Source of the DNA: an uncultured Clostridia bacterium | GTDB taxonomy: Bacteria > Bacillota_A > Clostridia > Oscillospirales > Oscillospiraceae | Reading direction: 5' to 3' | Assembly (NCBI GenBank): GCA_949289625.1 | Contig: CASEPH010000452.1 | Span: 1 to 7,915, forward strand | DNA length: 7,915 bases | Part shown: positions 1 to 7,914 of the stretch, piece by piece | How the letters are laid out: each line of letters begins with the position of its first letter | Position numbering within the stretch: the stretch's first letter is position 1 | Notes under the pieces: generated by a model | What the model saw: only the letters and a program-made list of their open reading frames with translations | Databases searched by the model: none | What the model was told of the DNA's origin: nothing | Made by a program: the position numbers and the translations under genes

Positions 1-533
1 GGGACACCCAGTCGCCTGGCATATTCCACCTGGGTCATCTGACGCCGCCGGCGCATTTCTTTAATCTGTCGTCCCTGACCATTGTAGAGGAACAAATTAA
101 ACTCGTCCAGCAAATCCGTGACCGGCACGGCGAACAGCTCCGCAATCTTCTGCATCTTCTCGATGGGGTAGTAGTCCCGCTGGGTATTCTCATAGCCGGA
201 ATATGTACTACGATCCAGACCGGCGTAGTCTGCCACATCTCTTTGCAGCAGACCATGCTGGTATCTGTACCACCGAAGCTTGTCCGCTATATTGTCGATT
301 TGAGTTGGATCTGTGTAGATAAGATTGAACTTCTCCGCCTCCACCAGCGTGTGGGGCTGGACAAGCCGGAAACTGTGAATATACAAGGGCGCGTAACTGA
401 CCACATCGAGAGCATAGCGTGTCATGACTACCATGCGTTCCGTAGCTTGGCAAAACACACGCCATTTATCCCTTAAGTCGGTGTGATCCGCCACATGAGG
501 GGGCAAAAAGTCCGCTACGATAGTGTAGCATTT
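1..533 (-). CDS. XRE-type double helix-turn-helix regulator, partial (start lost, runs off window)
   Basis: An uninterrupted minus-strand frame reads from the sigma-fragment junction to the window edge, so the C-terminus is missing. The first in-frame ATG is at 434, but protein-like sequence ([23 protein letters not shown]) continues upstream of it to about 527. The real start codon was therefore probably removed at the junction. The first half ([21 protein letters not shown]) is not a domain I recognise. An HTH_XRE domain follows ([20 protein letters not shown], then [18 protein letters not shown], with a DLLDEFN tail). A second HTH begins at [20 protein letters not shown] and is cut by the edge. 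Such proteins bind DNA as regulators, often of the mobile element that carries them. That role is inferred here. Codon use and spacing give no sign of its own Shine-Dalgarno site. It may be a pseudogene or may start at 434. Confidence 0.72.
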
Positions 534-2295
534 TCGATGCAGCGGGCCGCATAGGACGAAAGCTTGATGTTCTTTTCCGGATTGAAGGTATCGACGGCCT
601 TGATGAGGCCAATGGTGCCGATGGAAATGAGATCGTCCTGATCGCTGGTGCTGGAATAGTATTTTTTGGAGGGAGAAAGCAGAAGGAATCCTTTTCCCGA
701 TCAATCCTGACCTCACAGAGGTCCCCGAACTTCAAATAGATGTCCAGATAGATCTCCTCTCTGGTGCTGTTCTTTTTGACCACGATGCGATCGAGGATGG
801 TGGTGACCAGTGCCGAGCTGACTCCGTTCCGGAAGGAAAGCTCCTCCTCCAGGGCAGCCCGGATCTTCTGCAGCTGCTCCACGGAGACCCGGCTCTTTTC
901 CTCCTCCGCCTTCACAGCCTCCCGCTGCCGCTCCAGCTCCTGGAGCTGATGGTTGAAAGCGTCGTTGCGCTGTTTAAACTCCGCCGCCGAGAGGGCGCCC
1001 TCGATGCTCATCTCAAGCAGGCGGTCCTTTTTGGCGCAGACGGCGGAAATGTCCGCTTCCACGCGCTCCGCGTCCTGGCGGTAATCGTGTTCCTGCGGAA
1101 CGGCCTGGATGACCTTCAGCACGGCATCCACGATCGCCTGTCTATCCTGCGCCAGTTCGTGAAAGATCTGCGCCAGGATCAGATCCAGCTCGCTGCTCCG
1201 CATCTGAGGCGCGGAGCAGCCTGCCCGCCCCCGGTTCCGGTACACGCGGCACTGCCAGACCTCCTTTTCCCCCCTGGCGCTTTTCAGCACCTGCCGGTGG
1301 AAGCTGGTGCCGTGCTCTTCGCAAAAAATCTTGCCGCTGTAAGGGTAGCGGTTGTGGAATTCGGCGGCGCTCTGGTGGGCCATCATCTGAGCGCTGCGCC
1401 GCTTGTAGAGGGCGTTGGCCCGATCCCACAGCTCCTCTGACACGATGGCCGGGATGGACGGGTCCGGGTACATGACCCACTCGCTCTCGTCCAGGAAAAT
1501 CTTCCGTTTGCTGCGGTAGTCCACCGTCTGGCTCTTGTTGGCGCAATACCAGCCCTTGTATTTGGGGTTCTCCAGGATGTGCCGGATGGTCAGCACGTTG
1601 AAGGCGTTGCCCTTCCGGCTGGTAAAGCCCTCGTCGTAGAGCTGCCGGGAGATGCGCCGGATGCCCATCTGCTCGTTCGCGTAGAGATGGAAAATCCGCC
1701 GGACCACTTGTGCTTCCGCTTCGTTGATGGTGAGGACACAGTCCTTTTTGTCGTAGCCCCACAGTTTGTCATTGCCCAGCACATGACCGTTTTTGATGGC
1801 CTGGCGAAAACCGAATTTCAGCCGCTCGGAAAGCTTTCGCACCTCGTCCTGGGCCACCCCGGCCATGACCACGAGCCGGAACTCGCTGTCGCTGTCCAGC
1901 GTATTGATGTTGTCATTCTGAAACAGCACCCCCACGTCGTGCTCCAGCAGCTCCTGGGTATACTGGATGCTGTCCAGCGTAGAACGGGAAAAGCGGGATA
2001 TTTCCTTTGTGATGATGAAGTCAAACCGCCCTGCTTTGGCATCTGAAATCATCCTCAGGAAACTATCCCGCTTTTTGGTGCTCGTTCCGCTGATGCCTTC
2101 GTCGATGTATCCCGGCACATAGGTCCAGTTTCGCTTGGACTGGATCAGTTCGGTGTAATACTGCACCTGGTTTTCCAGGCTGTTGAGCTGTTCATCCTTG
2201 TCTGTGGACACCCGCGCGTAAAAGGTCACCCGCAGCGGCAAGTCAAAGATACTCTTCCCGTTGCGCATTTCATTTCGAATCTTGAGCACATTCAT
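466..2295 (-). CDS. Large serine recombinase (site-specific integrase/excisionase), with out-of-frame tail
   Basis: This is a DNA recombinase of the large serine (resolvase/invertase superfamily) type, which integrates or excises elements by a serine-linked double-strand break. The N-terminal catalytic domain (about 20-165) has YARVST with the nucleophile Ser30, EGISGTS at 66-72, and KEISRFSRS at 97-105. The recombinase domain (about 170-300) contains GYDKKD and [18 protein letters not shown] zinc-ribbon-like segment follows with C325, H328, C349 and C360, then a charged coiled coil (about 404-487) and a beta-rich end ([17 protein letters not shown]). Start ATG 2295 has a good AGGAGG site 9 nt upstream. 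Native sequence stops near residue 542 (position about 668). The last 66 residues are the sigma fragment and regulator DNA read in the wrong frame, ending at TAA 466, so the natural stop was lost. Family members are usually about 500-560 residues. The relative that excises skin from sigK is SpoIVCA. The chimeric tail may or may not impair function. Confidence 0.93.
515..667 (-). pseudogene. sigK: Fragment of sporulation sigma factor (SigK/SigE type), region 2 only
   Basis: This frame encodes [12 protein letters not shown], then [18 protein letters not shown], then [16 protein letters not shown], and hits TAG after four junction codons (A-T-L-S). It is the region 2.1-2.2 core of the SigK/SigE family, where [12 protein letters not shown] and YAARCIENE are hallmark strings. 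The KKYY...DQDD lead-in and the [10 protein letters not shown] string resemble clostridial SigK more than SigE, but I judge this from memory. Regions upstream (start, region 1.2) and downstream (2.3 to 4.2) are absent, so no working sigma factor can be made. The left edge falls in an A6 run touching the recombinase C-terminus. The right edge falls exactly after the codons for CIEN, where the regulator sequence begins. There is no start codon, and the frame is closed upstream by TGA at 701-703. No internal stop or frameshift has accumulated, which suggests a recent event. Confidence 0.8.
527..534 (-). other. Candidate site-specific junction inside sigma-factor codons (skin-type crossover)
   Basis: On the minus strand the sigma reading GAA-AAT-G stops matching after AAAATG and continues CTACAC, which belongs to the regulator frame. 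In intact SigK the next residues are E-I-L-M. In Bacillus subtilis the skin element interrupts sigK at this same CIENE position, with a short AATGA core as I recall it. Here AATG is retained and the next base is C. The coincidence of position is seen in the sequence. That it is a recombinase-made att junction is inference. A microhomology deletion would look similar. Confidence 0.45.
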
Positions 2296-2464
2296 GCTGA
2301 CATTCCTCCTCTGTCAAGCATACAGGATACCGCAGAAGCTCCGGGAAATCCATCACGGAATGTACCAAATCCTGCGCCCGGGAATAGGTGAATTGTGATA
2401 TCAAGCCAAGAGAAAAAACATGCTCCAGCAGAACGCTGACCACCAATCTCTGTGCGTTCTCCAA
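2270..2464 (-). CDS. Small ORF (64 aa) overlapping the recombinase start, unknown function
   Basis: A 64-residue frame starts at TTG 2464, is preceded at about 6 nt by AGGTGA, and has an in-frame TGA just upstream. The protein reads ENAQRLVVSVLLEHVFSLGL, then ISQFTYSRAQDLVHSVMDFP, then [17 protein letters not shown]. It looks alpha-helical and globular, has no transmembrane segment, and gives no family match I can name. It overlaps the recombinase by 26 nt in another frame, a typical coupled pair, so a role in controlling or assisting the recombinase (for example as a directionality factor) is conceivable but unproven. The alternative start ATG near 2475 leads into a different frame whose product is not protein-like. 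Against it: TTG starts are uncommon, and the sequence is short. Confidence 0.6.
   Translation of the reverse strand: MENAQRLVVSVLLEHVFSLGLISQFTYSRAQDLVHSVMDFPELLRYPVCLTEEECQHECAQDSK
2305..2310 (-). promoter_or_regulatory. Ribosome binding site of the recombinase
   Basis: Minus-strand AGGAGG lies 9 nt before ATG 2295 and fixes that start. It lies inside the coding sequence of the upstream small ORF, whose translation overlaps the recombinase start, so the two may be translationally coupled. Confidence 0.8.
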
Positions 2465-2465
2465 A

Positions 2466-2504
2466 TTGCATCACCTCATATACAAAATATGAGTTTTGAT
2501 GCAA
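2466..2504. promoter_or_regulatory. Inverted repeat covering the Shine-Dalgarno site of the small ORF
   Basis: The arms are TTGCATCA-C-CTCATA (2466-2480) and TATGAG-TTT-TGATGCAA (2488-2504), 14 paired positions in two blocks around a 7-nt centre, with one unequal internal loop. The minus-strand RNA would place the AGGTGA site of the 64-aa ORF inside the stem. It could be an operator for a dimeric regulator such as the XRE protein, or a translational hairpin. Minus-strand TTGCAT and TATATG, 16 bp apart, resemble a promoter weakly. A start there would fall at the Shine-Dalgarno site, so I do not call one. Confidence 0.5.
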
Positions 2505-2548
2505 AAAAATGCCGGCCGGAATGAAGTGACCCCCAAAAGTTAGACAAT

Positions 2549-2618
2549 TGAACAGGTCCAGTAAAAATAGACAGTGACAAAAGTGAACAGGTCCAGTAAA
2601 AATGGACAGTGACAAAGG
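2549..2618 (+). repeat. Two tandem 35-bp direct repeats at the IS left side
   Basis: Both units begin TGAACAGGTCCAGTAAAAAT and continue with RGACAGTGACAAA. Unit one is 2549-2583 and unit two 2584-2618, differing at only a couple of positions. They sit just outside or at the left end of the IS. They may be transposase-binding sites, a tandem duplication of an IS end, or ends of two abutting copies. Confidence 0.85.
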
Positions 2619-2657
2619 CCCCCTGATGTAGGAAAATGGACTACATCAGGGGGCCTT
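2615..2657 (+). promoter_or_regulatory. Strong hairpin just upstream of the transposase orfA
   Basis: AAGGCCCCCTGATGTA (2615-2630) and TACATCAGGGGGCCTT (2642-2657) pair perfectly over 16 bp around an 11-nt loop. The second arm ends 3 nt before ATG 2661 and contains the only G-rich stretch that could act as its Shine-Dalgarno site. In several IS elements such hairpins stop outside transcripts from producing transposase. That role fits here but is inferred. No U-tract follows in the plus direction. Confidence 0.75.
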
Positions 2658-2660
2658 GTC

Positions 2661-2813
2661 ATGAAAAAATGGAATAAAACACACGTTCAAGCATTGCTGC
2701 CTGAGACCAAGGCAATGGTGGCGGAGGGGAAAACCCAACGGGAAATTGCAGAACTCTATGGCTTTCAAGATAAACAGGTGATAAAAAGGCTGCTTGAGCG
2801 TGAGCGAAGATAA
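2661..2813 (+). pseudogene. IS3-family transposase orfA, N-terminal remnant
   Basis: ATG 2661 opens a 50-residue frame (KKWNKTHVQALLPETKAMVA, EGKTQREIAELYGFQDKQVI, KRLLERERR) that is the helix-turn-helix DNA-binding part of IS3 OrfA. It ends at a premature TAA at 2811. Removing one T after CGA-AGA restores the frame into KKRKQKAGILP (to about 2846), the normal continuation, so a +1 insertion broke it. The rest of OrfA, with its leucine zipper, is missing; family members are about 100 residues. Confidence 0.82.
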
Positions 2814-3384
2814 AAAACGCAAGCAGAAAGCCGGTATCCTTCCATGGGGCAGCAGTTTCACAAATACGAAAATTTACTCAACTAGAGATTTTCGATCGGA
2901 CAGGCCCAACAGCAAATGGGGAACGAATATCTCTTACATTCACACGAAACAGGGAGTACTGTACCTGTCCATGATCCGGGACCTCTATGACAATAATATC
3001 GTGGTCTGCAAGACCGGAACACAGCAGACGGTGAATCTGGTTTTGGATACCATTCGTCTGGATGTGAAGCAGGAGAAAAAGAGAGTCGCTGCGGAGTTGC
3101 AGCTCCACAGCGACCAGGGATTTCAGTACACATCTCAAGCATACTTTAACCTGGCTAAAGCATACGGCATTACACCATCCATGTCAAGGAAAGGAAATCC
3201 GTATGATAACGCCATGGCAGAAAATTTCTTCTCTATTCTCAAAACAGAGTGCATTTACCGCCACAAACCAGCGACCTTTTTCGAAGCCAATGAGATGATT
3301 GACCGCTATATTTACTTCTACAACCATGAACGCATCCAGCTAAAAACTGGAGAGGCGCCGCTTGCGCGACGCCTCTCCGCTTAA
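2814..3384 (+). pseudogene. IS3-family transposase orfB, truncated and inactivated DDE domain
   Basis: The continuous frame (open to 2794 and joined to the orfA tail) holds the catalytic core of OrfB: SKWGTNISYIHTKQGVLYLS, HSDQGFQYTS and GNPYDNAMAENFF. The second Asp (HSDQG) and the Glu (AMAEN) are separated by 35 residues, the DD(35)E spacing of IS3. The first catalytic Asp, normally in W-x-TD-I-S/T-Y, is Asn here. Upstream, FHKYENLLN (about 2856-2882) lies in a different frame from the following RDFRSDRPN. One extra T near 2883 explains that second frameshift. About the first hundred residues of OrfB are deleted; the full protein is usually about 270-290 residues. The C-terminus (LKTGEAPLARRLSA) is complete. 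No start with a Shine-Dalgarno site exists, so this is a pseudogene. Confidence 0.88.
3341..3378 (-). terminator. Intrinsic terminator for the ABC operon, inside the transposase 3' end
   Basis: Read on the minus strand, GGAGAGGCG (3378-3370) pairs with CGCCTCTCC (3357-3349). The stem can extend by three more pairs past one mismatch to a four-base loop. It is followed at once by AGTTTTTA (3348-3341). It lies 65-100 nt beyond the stop of the last ABC gene, with no other candidate in between. In the plus direction the T-run comes only about 12 nt after the stem, so it would be weaker for orfB. The 58 bases 3385-3442 between the two convergent units show nothing else but the putative IS right end. 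Confidence 0.65.
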
Positions 3385-3442
3385 AACTCAATTTTTTCAT
3401 GCCAAGGCCCTTTTTGGTGCTGTCTGCACAACCTGGGGCAAC

Positions 3443-4201
3443 TCAGAAGGCGGCTTCCACCAGGCGTTTGGCACAGTCCGACTGCGGGGAGCAAATCACC
3501 TGATCCGGTGTGCCTTCCTCCACGATTTTCCCTTCGTGCATCACCAGCACACGGTCGCAGAAGGACTGCACCAGGGCAAGATTGTGGCCGATAAACAGAA
3601 TAGACAGGCGGTTTTTCTGTTTCAGCGTTCGCAGCAGCTCCACGATCTGGTGCTGCGCCATGACGTCCAGTGAACTGGTCGCCTCGTCGCAAATCAGCAG
3701 CCGGGGACGGACGGCCAGCGCTCGCGCGATGGCGGCTCTCTGGCACTGGCCCCCGCTGAGCTCGTGCGGGTACCGCCGCGCATACGCGGGCGAAAGATCG
3801 CACTGTTCGAGCAGTCCGGCGACGCGCTGCTTTCTCTCGGCCTTCGGCACACCGCTGTTTTTCAGCGCCTCACCGATGCCGTATCCGATGGGTCTCCGCG
3901 GATCAAACGACGCCATGGGAGACTGGAAAACCATCTGCATCTGGCGGTATGCTTCCCGCAGCGCTTTCCCTTTTGCCTTTGTGATGTCGATCCCGTTCAG
4001 CCGGATGGTGCCGGCAGACGGATCGATCAGCCGGGTGATCAGCCTGGCCAGCGTGCTTTTCCCGCAGCCCGATTCCCCGACAAGGCCCAGCGTCTCGCCC
4101 TCACGGATCTGAATGCTGACGGAATCGACGGCCGCGTCCGCCGCGCGCTGCCCGCTTTCAAAGATTTTTGTCAGGCCCTCTGTCTTCAAGATCTCGTTCA
4201 T
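3443..4201 (-). CDS. Peptide/nickel-type ABC importer ATPase, DppF/NikE-like
   Basis: This is a 252-residue cytoplasmic ATPase, the second nucleotide-binding subunit of the importer. Walker A is GESGCGKS (42-49), the Q-loop is FQSPMASFDPR with Q93, the signature is LSGGQCQR (148-155), and Walker B is LLICDE (168-173), followed by ATSSLD. The switch histidine is H206, in an unusual IGHN instead of THD/SHD. It is short like NikE and lacks the long C-terminal extension of OppF/DppF. ATG 4201 was chosen because GGAGGG lies about 9 nt upstream and it follows the preceding stop by 4 nt. Frames further upstream overlap that gene. It is the last gene of the operon and pairs with the ATPase before it. 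Confidence 0.9.
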   Translation of the reverse strand: MNEILKTEGLTKIFESGQRAADAAVDSVSIQIREGETLGLVGESGCGKSTLARLITRLIDPSAGTIRLNGIDITKAKGKALREAYRQMQMVFQSPMASFDPRRPIGYGIGEALKNSGVPKAERKQRVAGLLEQCDLSPAYARRYPHELSGGQCQRAAIARALAVRPRLLICDEATSSLDVMAQHQIVELLRTLKQKNRLSILFIGHNLALVQSFCDRVLVMHEGKIVEEGTPDQVICSPQSDCAKRLVEAAF

Positions 4202-4205
4202 CCCG

Positions 4206-4988
4206 TCATGCCCTCCGCAGCCGCGGCACGGCCGCGAGGAGCGCGCGCGTATAGCTGTTCTGCGGCTCCTGCAGAATCTGCCGTGCAGGACCATATTCCA
4301 TCACATTTCCCTCTTTCAGCACAAGGATCGAATCCGCCATGGCGGACACGACGCCGATGTCGTGCGAGACCAGAACCACGGCGGTGCCAAACAGCCGGCG
4401 CAGGCGGAGCAGTTCCTCCACCACCTGTTTTTGCACGGAGGCATCCAGGGCGCTGGTCGGCTCATCAGCCAGCAGCACCGGCGGGTTCATACACATGGCG
4501 ATGGCGATCCCCACGCGCTGCTGCATCCCGCCGGAAAGCTCAAACGGGTAACTTTCCCAGATGCGCGCGCCGTCCTTGAGCTGAAGGGCTTCAAACAGCG
4601 ACAGCGCCTTTTCCTTCGCCTGCGCTCGGGTGATCTTCCTGTGCGCGGCCATGCTTTCCGCCATCTGATCCCCGATGGTGCGGACGGGACAGAGGGAAGC
4701 CCCGGCATCCTGAAAGATCATCCCGATCTCAGCGCCGCAGATCCTGCGCAGCTCCCGTTCCGGCAGGTCGGGCAGATCCTTGCCCTGAAACCAGATGTCG
4801 CCCCTCGTCACCAGGCCGCCCGTGCCGAGAAGCCCCAGCGCCGCCTTCAGAAGCGTGCTCTTCCCGCTGCCGGACTCCCCCACAATGCCGAGGATTTCCC
4901 CCTTCTGCAGCGCAAAACTCACGTCATGGGTGACGGCGCGCCCGTGAAAGCTGACTTCCACAGAGCAATAGCGCAAGATGGGCTCCAT
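4206..4988 (-). CDS. Peptide/nickel-type ABC importer ATPase, DppD/NikD-like
   Basis: This is a 260-residue ATPase that couples ATP hydrolysis to ligand import. Walker A is GESGSGKS (37-44), the Q-loop is IFQDAGASL with Q93, the signature is LSGGMQQR (151-158), Walker B is VLLADE (171-176), the D-loop is SALD and the switch is SHD with H209. The length suits the NikD subgroup. ATG 4988 is preceded by an AAGGAGG site at a suitable distance. A GTG at 5021 in the same frame would overlap the binding-protein stop and is less likely. It lies 29 nt after the binding protein gene and 4 nt before the next ATPase. Confidence 0.92.
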   Translation of the reverse strand: MEPILRYCSVEVSFHGRAVTHDVSFALQKGEILGIVGESGSGKSTLLKAALGLLGTGGLVTRGDIWFQGKDLPDLPERELRRICGAEIGMIFQDAGASLCPVRTIGDQMAESMAAHRKITRAQAKEKALSLFEALQLKDGARIWESYPFELSGGMQQRVGIAIAMCMNPPVLLADEPTSALDASVQKQVVEELLRLRRLFGTAVVLVSHDIGVVSAMADSILVLKEGNVMEYGPARQILQEPQNSYTRALLAAVPRLRRA

Positions 4989-5017
4989 CTCTCCCCCTCC
5001 TTTTCCCCATCGGATTG

Positions 5018-6577
5018 TCACGGGGCGGGCTTCAAATCCGCCGTGATCTCATAGAAATCGCAGGGATGCGCCGTCAGGCCCTCCACATCCGACCGGCAAA
5101 TCATGCTCATCTGCAGATGCGAGCAGAAGACGAACGCGTCGTCATCCAAAAGGATCTGCTGCATGTCCGCCGCCAGCTCCGCCCGGCGCGCCGCATCAAA
5201 GGTTGTGTTCAGCTCAGCCGCCAGGCTTTCCAGCGCGTCGCTGTGATAGTGCCCGTTGTTCGCCGCGGAGCTGTCAAGGCAGTGGGTGGTGAAGAAATAG
5301 GCCGGATCGCCGGTGGGCGCCGTGACCATGGCGCTGGCATAGACATCCCACGCCGCCGGATCGGTGCGGATGCTGTTGTGATCGGCCGTGCTGTTGACGA
5401 TGACGTCAAACCCGATTGCCCCGAGGGAAGCCTGCGCGGATTCGGCCAGCAACGGCAGCTCCTGACGGCTGGGATACGTGAGCCAGCGAATGGTCAGCTC
5501 CTGCCCATCCTTTTCCCGGATGCCGTCGCCGTCCGTGTCCACCCAGCCCGCTTCTTCCAAAATGGCGCGCGCGCCGTCCGGATCATAGTCTTTGGCCGTG
5601 ACCGCGTCGCCTCCGAACGAAAAAACATCCGGAAAGGCGCCGGCGGCAGGGTATCCGTTCCCGCCCAGCAGATCGGTTACGAAGCGCTCTTTGTCGATCC
5701 CCATCGCAATCGCCCGGCGCACGGCCGGGTCCTGAAGGATGGAGCTTTCAAAATTCATGCTGACGAAGAACACCCGGCTGGTCGCTGTGCCGGAGAAGGT
5801 GTATTCATCATTCTGAAACAGCGGATAACTGGCGTAGGGCATGCCGTAAGCGCCGTCGATCTCCCCGGACTGGAGGGCCATCGTCAGCGTGTCGCCGTCC
5901 GAGATCGTCAGCACTGTTATCTCGTCGAACCCCGGTTCGCCGTCCCAGTACGATTCATTCTTTCTGAGTGTCAGCTCCTCCCCCGTGGTCAGCGATACGG
6001 CAAGGTACGGGCCGGTTCCGCAGACAATCCCGTCCTCGGTGATGCCGGCCTCCATGTCGATGATGCATCCGTACGGATCGCTGAGATAGTTCAGCAGGGT
6101 GGGGCGAGGCTCCGTCGTCCGGATGGTCACCGTCTGCCCGTCGGCAGTGATCGAATCGATCAACAGGTCGCCCCGGGCGCGATCATGCACCTCAATCAGA
6201 TGCTCGAGGCACTCCTTCACGGCCTCACCGTCCATCTTCCGCCCGCTGGAGAAGGTGACGCCGTCCCGCAGCGTGATCTTCCAGGTCAGGTCGTCCACCA
6301 GCTCATAGCCGGTGGCCAGCCAGGGCTCGATCTCCATGCTGTCCGAATACCGGAACAACGTCTCCCCCACGCCGTAGCGGATACAGGCCCAGCCGGAATA
6401 GGCGCGATGCGGATTGATGTCCGGCTCCTCATTTTCGGCATTGAACGTGGTATCGCCCAGCACGAACGTCGTTTCGTCCGTCCGGGTATCGGAGGAGGGC
6501 GCGGCACACCCGGACACCAGCCCCAGCACGAGGACCGCTGCGGCCAGCCACACCGACAAGGCTCTGCATTTTTTCAT
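5018..6577 (-). CDS. Extracellular lipoprotein binding protein of Nik/Dpp-type ABC importer (SBP family 5)
   Basis: This 519-residue protein has a lipoprotein signal peptide: MKKCR, a hydrophobic run 8-22, and the lipobox VSG-C with Cys24 as the lipidation site. It would be anchored to the outer face of the membrane and bind the ligand for import. The mature part is full length for SBP_bac_5, with typical strings such as INPHRAYSGWACIRYGVGET (54-73), TWKITLRDGVTFSSG, GTGPYLAV, RRAIAMGIDKERFV and DPAYFFTTHCLDSS. DTDGDG at 347-352 resembles a calcium-binding loop. The GVGE-L-RY and W-ITLRDG pattern is closest to NikA-like members in my recollection, but the ligand could be a dipeptide, nickel complex or metallophore. 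ATG 6577 has a purine-rich GGGAAGGG upstream. It sits between permeases and ATPases rather than first. Confidence 0.92.
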   Translation of the reverse strand: MKKCRALSVWLAAAVLVLGLVSGCAAPSSDTRTDETTFVLGDTTFNAENEEPDINPHRAYSGWACIRYGVGETLFRYSDSMEIEPWLATGYELVDDLTWKITLRDGVTFSSGRKMDGEAVKECLEHLIEVHDRARGDLLIDSITADGQTVTIRTTEPRPTLLNYLSDPYGCIIDMEAGITEDGIVCGTGPYLAVSLTTGEELTLRKNESYWDGEPGFDEITVLTISDGDTLTMALQSGEIDGAYGMPYASYPLFQNDEYTFSGTATSRVFFVSMNFESSILQDPAVRRAIAMGIDKERFVTDLLGGNGYPAAGAFPDVFSFGGDAVTAKDYDPDGARAILEEAGWVDTDGDGIREKDGQELTIRWLTYPSRQELPLLAESAQASLGAIGFDVIVNSTADHNSIRTDPAAWDVYASAMVTAPTGDPAYFFTTHCLDSSAANNGHYHSDALESLAAELNTTFDAARRAELAADMQQILLDDDAFVFCSHLQMSMICRSDVEGLTAHPCDFYEITADLKPAP

Positions 6578-6616
6578 CGTTTCCCTTCCCTTTCGTCTTT
6601 CTTTTCGGGATCGCCT

Positions 6617-7465
6617 TTACCGGCCGGTGCGGGGATCGAGCACATCCCGCACGCTGTCCCCCAGGAGATGAAAGAGGGCGACAGCCGCAAAAATGGCGAC
6701 GCCGGGGCCAAGAATGACCCACGGATACGTTTGCAGCATGCTCCGCCCGCTGCTCATCATGCTGCCCAGTTCGGCGGTCGGCGGCATGGCGCCGAGTCCA
6801 AGGAAGCTCAATCCGGCCAGCTCCATCATCATGGTGCCAATGTCGAGCACCGCCGTGACCAGAATGGGCCCGGCGATATTCGGCAGGATGTGCCACACCA
6901 TGAGCTGCACAGAGGAGTCTCCCGACAGCCGGGCGGCCGCGATGAAGTCCGCGCTTTCCAGGGCCAGCGTCTGGCTTCTGGCAAGGCGGGCATATTTGGG
7001 CCAGCTGACCACCGCCAGGGCAAGCACCGCGTTCTGCAGCCCTCCGTTCAGCAGGGCCGCAATCGCCAGGGCCAGGACGAGGCCGGGGAAAGCCAGGCAC
7101 ACATCCGCCACCCGCATCATCAGGGCATCCGCCGCGCCGCCCAGATGGCCGCACAGGACGCCGATGGCGGTCCCCGCCGCGGTGATGATGGCCACCAGGG
7201 CGAGGGTGGACAGCACACTGGTCCGCAGACCGATCAGAATGCGGGACAGCATATCGCGGCCAAAGCGATCCGTCCCGGCGGGATGCTGCACGCTGGGCGG
7301 CTCCAGGGCGGAAAAGACCTGCGCATTGGGGTCATACGGGCAGAACTGCCGGGCGAAACAGACAACGATCAGAAAAACCGCCGTGACCAGCAAAAAGCAG
7401 ACAAACCTCTTCCTTGTGTGATTCTTCCGGATCTTCTGCCGGCGGACAGTAACGGAATCGATCAT
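6617..7465 (-). CDS. Peptide/nickel-type ABC importer permease, DppC/NikC-like
   Basis: This is a 282-residue inner-membrane channel subunit. It starts with a basic cytoplasmic tail (1-20), a first transmembrane segment (21-38), and then the OppC-type motif HPAGTDRFGRDMLSRILIGL (61-80). Further hydrophobic segments lie near 86-106, 120-140, 144-153, 198-215 and 250-267. The EAA-type cytoplasmic loop that contacts the ATPases is around 170-198 (SADFIAAARLSGDSS...HILPN). The C-terminus LLGDSVRDVLDPR is typical. ATG 7465 overlaps the TGA of the upstream permease as ATGA, with AGGAAGGG just before it. A longer reading of the frame to 7633 lies inside the upstream gene and is not used. Confidence 0.93.
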   Translation of the reverse strand: MIDSVTVRRQKIRKNHTRKRFVCFLLVTAVFLIVVCFARQFCPYDPNAQVFSALEPPSVQHPAGTDRFGRDMLSRILIGLRTSVLSTLALVAIITAAGTAIGVLCGHLGGAADALMMRVADVCLAFPGLVLALAIAALLNGGLQNAVLALAVVSWPKYARLARSQTLALESADFIAAARLSGDSSVQLMVWHILPNIAGPILVTAVLDIGTMMMELAGLSFLGLGAMPPTAELGSMMSSGRSMLQTYPWVILGPGVAIFAAVALFHLLGDSVRDVLDPRTGR

Positions 7466-7914
7466 CCCTTCCTCACCCCCAGCCGGATGCGGGGATCCAG
7501 CGCCCGATAGGACAGATCTGTCACGAGATTCACGCAGACATAGAGGATCGCCATCCACATCACATAGGCCTGAATCATCGGATAGTCCCGCATGTTGATG
7601 GCGTCCACCGCCAGTTTGCCGACGCCGTCCCACATGAAGATGGATTCTACAATCGCGGTGCCGCCCAGCAGGCTGCCGATCGAGAGGGTCAGCAGCGTCA
7701 GAATGGTGATGAGGCAGGACCGCAGGACGCTTTTGGTGAGCGTCACCGAAAAGCGGACGCCCCGCGCCTTTGCCCCCGCCACATACGCTTTGCCCAGCTC
7801 CTCCAGCACGGCAGCCCGGACCTGCCTCAGATATTTGGCCGACATCGCGATGGCGAGCGTCAGGGAAGGCAGCACCACATTCTGCAGCGTCACCCCGCGG
7901 GAAATCACGGGGAA
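7462..7914 (-). CDS. Peptide/nickel-type ABC importer permease, DppB/NikB-like, C-terminal part
   Basis: The frame is open to the window edge, so the N-terminus (about half of a usual 305-340 residue protein) is outside. Visible are a transmembrane stretch (VVLPSLTLAIAMSAKYLRQV), the EAA loop (EELGKAYVAGAKARGV), the next helices (ITILTLLTLSIGSLLGGTAI), VESIFMWDGVGKLAVDAIN, MRDYPMIQAYVMW, and the terminal VNLVTDLSYRALDPRIRLG, all standard for DppB/NikB. The GTG at 7908 is an internal codon, not the start. It forms the channel with the following permease and is translationally coupled to it. Confidence 0.92.
   Translation of the reverse strand, partial: FPVISRGVTLQNVVLPSLTLAIAMSAKYLRQVRAAVLEELGKAYVAGAKARGVRFSVTLTKSVLRSCLITILTLLTLSIGSLLGGTAIVESIFMWDGVGKLAVDAINMRDYPMIQAYVMWMAILYVCVNLVTDLSYRALDPRIRLGVRKG

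Follow-up and report, generated by a model that had tools for sequence, protein, structure and literature searches.

Sporulation genes interrupted by intervening elements are known from several spore-forming bacteria. In Bacillus subtilis, the skin element interrupts sigK and is described as carrying the large serine recombinase SpoIVCA and Skr, a 64-aa factor whose gene overlaps spoIVCA (PMC6957869). In the skin element of C. difficile (CD1231, CD1234), the recombinase gene CD1231 directly precedes the 3' part of sigK, and the small factor, of 72 aa, is placed under the control of sigma-E and SpoIIID (PMC5025042). That account treats skin as an exception in clostridia and names as others C. 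tetani, some C. botulinum and one strain of C. perfringens (PMC5025042). In C. tetani and C. perfringens, sigK is the integration site of prophages (PMC5553647). Elements in other sporulation genes include gin in gerE of Bacillus cereus (GirC, GirX), which is reported to have no phage genes and three serine recombinases (PMC5595907), and yin in yabG of Clostridium botulinum, with a recombinase and a putative small factor (PMC10747680). Elements that intervene in sigK are described as distributed among spore formers (PMC5595907).

The locus studied here shares with B. subtilis skin an interrupted sigK, a large serine recombinase and a 64-aa ORF that overlaps the recombinase gene, but the overlap is 26 nt here as opposed to 101 in B. 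subtilis (PMC6957869), the cargo that was scanned has no phage structural gene, and sigK is interrupted at a further codon by a second element. It resembles C. difficile skin in having a recombinase gene flush against a downstream piece of sigK, while the latter is described as a single element (PMC5025042). The sigK interrupters of C. tetani and C. perfringens are prophages, and the account in PMC5553647 contains no double split. Both gin and yin, as described, differ in the gene affected (gerE, yabG) and in having one element per gene (PMC5595907, PMC10747680). We found no report of two elements in one sigK, or of skin in Oscillospiraceae or Ruminococcaceae, in a search of titles and abstracts that lay mostly outside subscription journals. 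The new feature is not the skin-like developmental element, a known type, but the presence of two in one gene.

The probable middle piece of a split sigK gene

The window, that is, the whole stretch of 7,915 nt that was analysed, carries on its minus strand (667-515) a reading frame for 50 SigK-like residues. An earlier note, made from the letters alone, had described these as a fragment of SigK/SigE region 2 between a serine recombinase and a regulator, and profile searches agree. The Pfam model Sigma70_r2 matches the slice with an E value of 4.2e-12, and two NCBIfam SigK models match at 7.4e-20 and 2.5e-19 (TIGR02846, positions 66-114), with SigE behind at 1.7e-18. The sigK origin of the slice thus stands, while its length of about fifty codons has to be corrected. 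Comparison with relatives limits the sigK homology to the 46 codons KKYY..CIEN at 667-530, and the final codons and the stop of 667-515 are different DNA. All 46 residues are identical in L017, the contig of genome G001 that carries a relative of the neighbouring recombinase, and there sigK runs on to its end. Scans of the window for tRNA genes and Rfam families gave no matches.

The remaining parts of sigK, which the earlier note proposed to look for in the same genome, were located in related genomes. In Anaeromassilibacillus sp. An200 (G016), contig C56 has three sigK exons at 66162-66362, 72382-72555 and 78776-79093, in order and on one strand. The same arrangement is found on contig C29 of G128 (20633-20830, 31988-32188 and 39069-39386). 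Exons 2 and 3 of G282 share a contig, 26 kb apart, and exon 1 is on another; in G277 the three pieces are on three contigs. When TIGR02846 was run against 20 genomes with an LSR1 locus (LSR1 being the recombinase beside the slice), the matches listed contained an intact sigK in one (G007) and, besides paralogues, only pieces in the other 19. Again among the matches listed, four of these genomes (G002, G003, G016 and G018) have three pieces, and G010 has no piece other than exon 1. For the window itself, the splitting is read from exon 2 and from these relatives, in which exons 1 and 3 are known; in its own genome, both would lie elsewhere.

We consider it probable that two independent skin-like elements divide a sigK gene into three and that the slice is its exon 2; both elements are proposed to excise in the mother cell and so to restore sigK.

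Purifying selection on exon 2 of sigK

Among the readings that compete with a working three-piece gene, decay survives best, although we regard it as improbable. It holds that the insertions destroyed sigK in a lineage that no longer sporulates, and it draws on the number and large size of the insertions and on an IS3-like remnant beside LSR1 in the window. The earlier note had likewise allowed for a scar. However, the 19 doubly cut slices, window included, are all open, with a median dN/dS of 0.107 over the 130 pairs, out of 171, that could be used; no pair reaches 1, and the median is close to the 0.117 of singly cut slices (257 of 528 pairs used). These exon 2 sets omit L051, whose slice is cut by a contig end, and drop pairs with saturated or zero dS; the labels double and single were assigned by eye from junction comparison. 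Exon 2 is under purifying selection in the doubly cut slices. Between the window and L017, dS is 0.458 with zero amino-acid changes, and the alignments of exon 1 and exon 3 contain no stop codons. LSR1 also stays open: none of 76 frames has a stop before residue 544, at the junction, and the stops at residues 544-546 in six of the 76 are the natural end. G016 and G001 both have SigE, identified by its own profile as the full-length paralogue. The scar is disfavoured by the open frames together with the purifying selection.

Site 1 and its recombinase

LSR1 (minus strand, 667..2295; 543 aa to the junction) has the complete domain set of a large serine recombinase, namely Resolvase (PF00239), Recombinase (PF07508) and Zn-ribbon (PF13408), and matches the PHROG integrase family phrog_95 at E 2.1e-112. 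Its reading frame is open across the junction with sigK, from 2295 to 466. Relatives in species genomes amounted to 366 matching stretches, of which the best 80 were used. In 74 of these 80 loci, the 3' end of LSR1 lies less than 400 nt from a sigK piece. The six exceptions are L043 and L067, which stop at a contig edge, and L026, L055, L084 and L093, which have no sigK piece at the end of LSR1 though the contig continues. In L093 (position 2583), the LSR1 relative is in a bin labelled Brachyspira and ends at DNA without recognisable sigK. LSR1 was found at E 1e-120 in 37 of 200 genomes of the family, and at 57% identity or more in 21. A search of viral contigs with SigK gave three loci.

Site 1 lies in codon 66 (HIV|KKYY) and spans 666..686 on the minus strand: the right arm of element 1 at 686-668 and a putative core dinucleotide AA at 667-666, the first two bases of codon 66. 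This was read from a comparison of arms and core in 44 tandem and 30 convergent LSR1 loci. The core is assigned to AA because the left and right junctions overlap there. With arms of the GGTGAAGC type, the ends of site 1 form a short direct repeat with inverted arms, and the window has one end of element 1.

The element is found in both orientations. Orientation A, with LSR1 co-directional with sigK and abutting KKYY, accounts for 44 loci (42 from the set of 80, plus one viral contig and the window). Orientation B, with LSR1 opposed to sigK and placed against exon 1, was read at the junction in 30 loci and is represented by 32 in the tree; exon 1 has its end there near HI[VIM][KN][KN]. The arm beside LSR1 and the distance from arm to core look alike in both, and the core on the LSR1 strand is AA in A and TT in B. 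Reversal of the element at an unchanged host AA would by itself flip the core, so the actual finding is that both orientations exist. A quick tree of 76 LSR1 proteins requires at least 10 changes of orientation, at least five of them forced by starred branches, and the mean for shuffled labels is 24.7.

Site 2 and a second recombinase

The second breakpoint, CIEN|E, has the core AAATG at 529..533 (minus strand). We take CIEN to be the position of skin in B. subtilis. In L127, L129 and L133, exon 2 ends in GAAAATG|CTA and exon 3 begins with TAGC|AAATGA, and in L017 the site is empty. The ends in L127 show AAAT(G) with GCTATCCTCACA arms; the window has one end of element 2. This left end occupies 1..529 (minus strand) and carries the HTH regulator gene (about 434-3), which runs off the window edge. 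The HTH protein has matches in 20 further locus records, some of which overlap (L018/L128, L038/L137, L034/L138), and in 16 of the 20 the match exceeds 120 residues. In L127, L129, L131, L133 and L156, exon 3 has a second recombinase, LSR2, directly beside it. The element 2 of the window's type has its left end and LSR2 on separate contigs in G002, G003 and G065 and was not seen whole. A second, independent element has its edge at CIEN, and its own recombinase lies beside exon 3 in relatives. Since LSR1 sits at codon 66 and LSR2 at CIEN, there are two elements in one gene.

Positions 1-540 of the window are 98.0% identical to L155 of another genome (G065), where the same DNA occupies site 2 of a sigK that lacks the split at site 1; the LSR2 of G065 is 96% identical to that of G003. 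L017, with an LSR1 96% identical to that of the window, has the split at site 1 and an empty site 2. The two elements thus assort independently.

The slice could also be a duplicate that hitch-hikes on a mobile element, outside the working sigK of the host. Slices do lie at element ends, and the element families are spread over several bacterial families. Nevertheless we hold this to be very improbable, for the slice follows the host and not element 2, its residues being those of L017 while the DNA behind it is that of L155. In addition, no second full-length sigK was found among the matches listed for G016, G128 and G001.

The earlier note had paired the neighbouring recombinase with the CIEN breakpoint, as a single skin element. 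The position of CIEN and the recombinase adjoining the fragment had suggested this, but it is now scarcely credible. Out of 53 slices, 33, including L017, are split at site 1 and continue past CIEN into EIL or EVL and onward through sigK. Another 19, the window among them, leave sigK at CIEN, and the last, L051, breaks off at a contig end. LSR1 belongs to the codon 66 end, LSR2 abuts exon 3 at the other breakpoint, and three exons stand on one contig in G016 and G128. The broader suggestion of the note, skin-like elements in gut Clostridia, was nonetheless sound.

Contigs of relatives often break near site 2, yet an assembly chimera, which the note had considered for 500-680, is very improbable, for the order LSR1, slice and same downstream DNA is repeated in L018, L019, L038 and L039, which makes chance or assembly error very unlikely and the fragment real, and a comparable three-exon order exists in the isolate-labelled genome An200 (L057/L127).

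A candidate directionality factor and its proposed promoter

Upstream of LSR1 is an ORF of 64 aa (minus strand, 2270..2464) that starts with TTG and overlaps the LSR1 start by 26 nt. Judged by its position and its counterparts in relatives, it is a candidate recombination directionality (excision) factor. A pattern search of 66 upstream regions, with loci below 64% LSR1 identity or with less than 300 nt upstream omitted, found counterparts of 44-66 aa in 51 and no match to the pattern in 15. The overlap of 26 nt recurs in 34 of the 51, and the start codons are TTG in 28, ATG in 21 and GTG in two. Searches of the small ORF against Pfam and PHROGs gave no match.

A sigma-E-like promoter can be proposed at 2470..2512 (minus strand), with a -35 GCATTTT at 2512-2506, a spacer of 14 nt and a -10 CATATTTT at 2491-2484, followed by the ribosome-binding site GAGGTGAT at 2477-2470. 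The proposal rests on conservation of CATA and on a promoter score. For these counts, 65 regions were used, one of the small-ORF regions, without GGTGA, being omitted. CATA occurs 14-18 nt upstream of the ribosome-binding site GGTGA in 61 of the 65 (1.2 expected from shuffles). Measured against the sigma-E consensus, the whole promoter scores at least 12 of 15 in 18 of the 65 (1.5 expected), but its -35 often falls on the end of a terminator-like hairpin and on the T-run there. The -10 appears sigma-E-like. In the window, the IS3-like remnant has taken the place of the left arm of this hairpin, which lies upstream of the small ORF; both arms are kept in L017.

Proposed excision of both elements

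Under the reading of two elements in one gene, element 1 (LSR1, small ORF and cargo) would sit in codon 66 and element 2 (the HTH gene at its left end and, as in relatives, LSR2 at its right end) at CIEN|E. Mother-cell sigma-E would activate both the small ORF and LSR1. Element 1 would then be excised by LSR1, the small ORF acting as its directionality factor, and element 2 by LSR2 together with a separate factor. An in-frame sigK would be restored in the mother cell, which later lyses, and the spore would retain both elements. Both elements probably must be removed before the spore is completed.

No excised product, that is, a joined sigK beside a free circle, was seen in the contigs examined. 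Junctions that resemble attP were found in L026 (G007) and L084 (G275), on contigs whose ends show no overlap that would mark a circle; G007 has its intact sigK elsewhere in the genome. At L026:11560-11700 and L172:2900-3060, the right end of LSR1 is joined to the left end of an element outside any sigK. The two left ends differ in G275, and tandem accretion therefore fits better there than a circle. The junctions of L026 and L172 may reflect tandem accretion or another integration route.

Cargo of the elements

Positions 3443..7914 of the window (minus strand) hold an operon for a peptide/nickel-type ABC transporter with two permeases, a solute-binding protein (PF00496) and two ATPases, all but the binding protein being named by eye. 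It is probably cargo of element 1. Between it and LSR1 lies the IS3-like remnant (2525..3420; PF00665, rve), with an inverted repeat at 2651-2673/3388-3410; homology with L017 stops at 2524. The operon is 95.9% identical to one on contig C10 of G001, which also has exon 1 of sigK about 21 kb away on the same strand. Contig C10 and L017, on which a CotH gene is present, would join in the G001 genome.

Contig C10 also bears type I-E cas genes. Cas3e, Cas7e and Cas1e are found behind exon 1 (L150:11479-19746), and from this position they probably lie within element 1. Other cargo at site 1 includes a prismane/hydroxylamine-reductase-like protein (L136), a Na+/H+ antiporter (L143) and a TctA transporter (L128). 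In Intestinibacillus massiliensis, the sigK element at site 1 contains a complete Wadjet set, JetABCD (L135:5998-13984). Phage structural genes were absent among the selected cargo ORFs scanned from a few elements. Beside LSR1, the element 1 of An200 has another serine recombinase and a fragment of a resolvase (L127:4477-6549), which recalls the several recombinases of gin, and a chloramphenicol-acetyltransferase-like gene (PF00302) lies at the left end of its element 2 (L127:8599-9237).

A wider reading, to which we incline with clearly less assurance, is that sigK of gut Clostridia serves as a permanent docking place for two elements. Each of two different recombinase families would own one site, insert either way and bring in cargo other than phage genes (Wadjet, transporters and probably CRISPR-Cas I-E), and jointly they would form a two-key developmental switch that gives sigma-K only after both excisions in the mother cell.

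Distribution of split sigK genes

Three overlapping samples of genomes were surveyed with the SigK of L146. Each includes its centre genome, which was picked for its split sigK, and classes were taken from query coverage among the matches listed, not from individual junctions. In the family sample around G015 (61 genomes), 40 have an intact sigK, six are split at site 1 only, eight at site 2 only and one at both; one has exon 1 only and five are without. On this basis sigK is split in 15 of the 61, or 14 of 60 without the chosen centre. The order sample around G016 (59 genomes) has 48 intact genes, five split at site 2 only, one double (G016 itself) and five unclear or without. The class sample around G016 (59 genomes) has nine split at site 2, one double (G016), 32 clearly and four probably intact, and 13 unclear or without. 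By these counts, splits at site 1 are a minority, and in the order and class samples none was seen outside G016 among the matches listed.

Skin has been called a clostridial exception (PMC5025042), yet sigK is split in 15 of the 61 genomes of the family sample, as counted among the matches listed. Split genes could lead annotation to list sigK as missing or truncated. If the proposed excisions hold true, sigK would depend on two independent site-specific excisions, and this would be a control logic new to sporulation among gut commensals. The recombinases, both orientations and the empty sites offer natural sets for testing recombination direction. In two genomes of the class sample (G298, contig C134; G320, contig C31), the insert that splits sigK at site 2 measures only about 1.6 kb, which leaves room for little beyond a recombinase.
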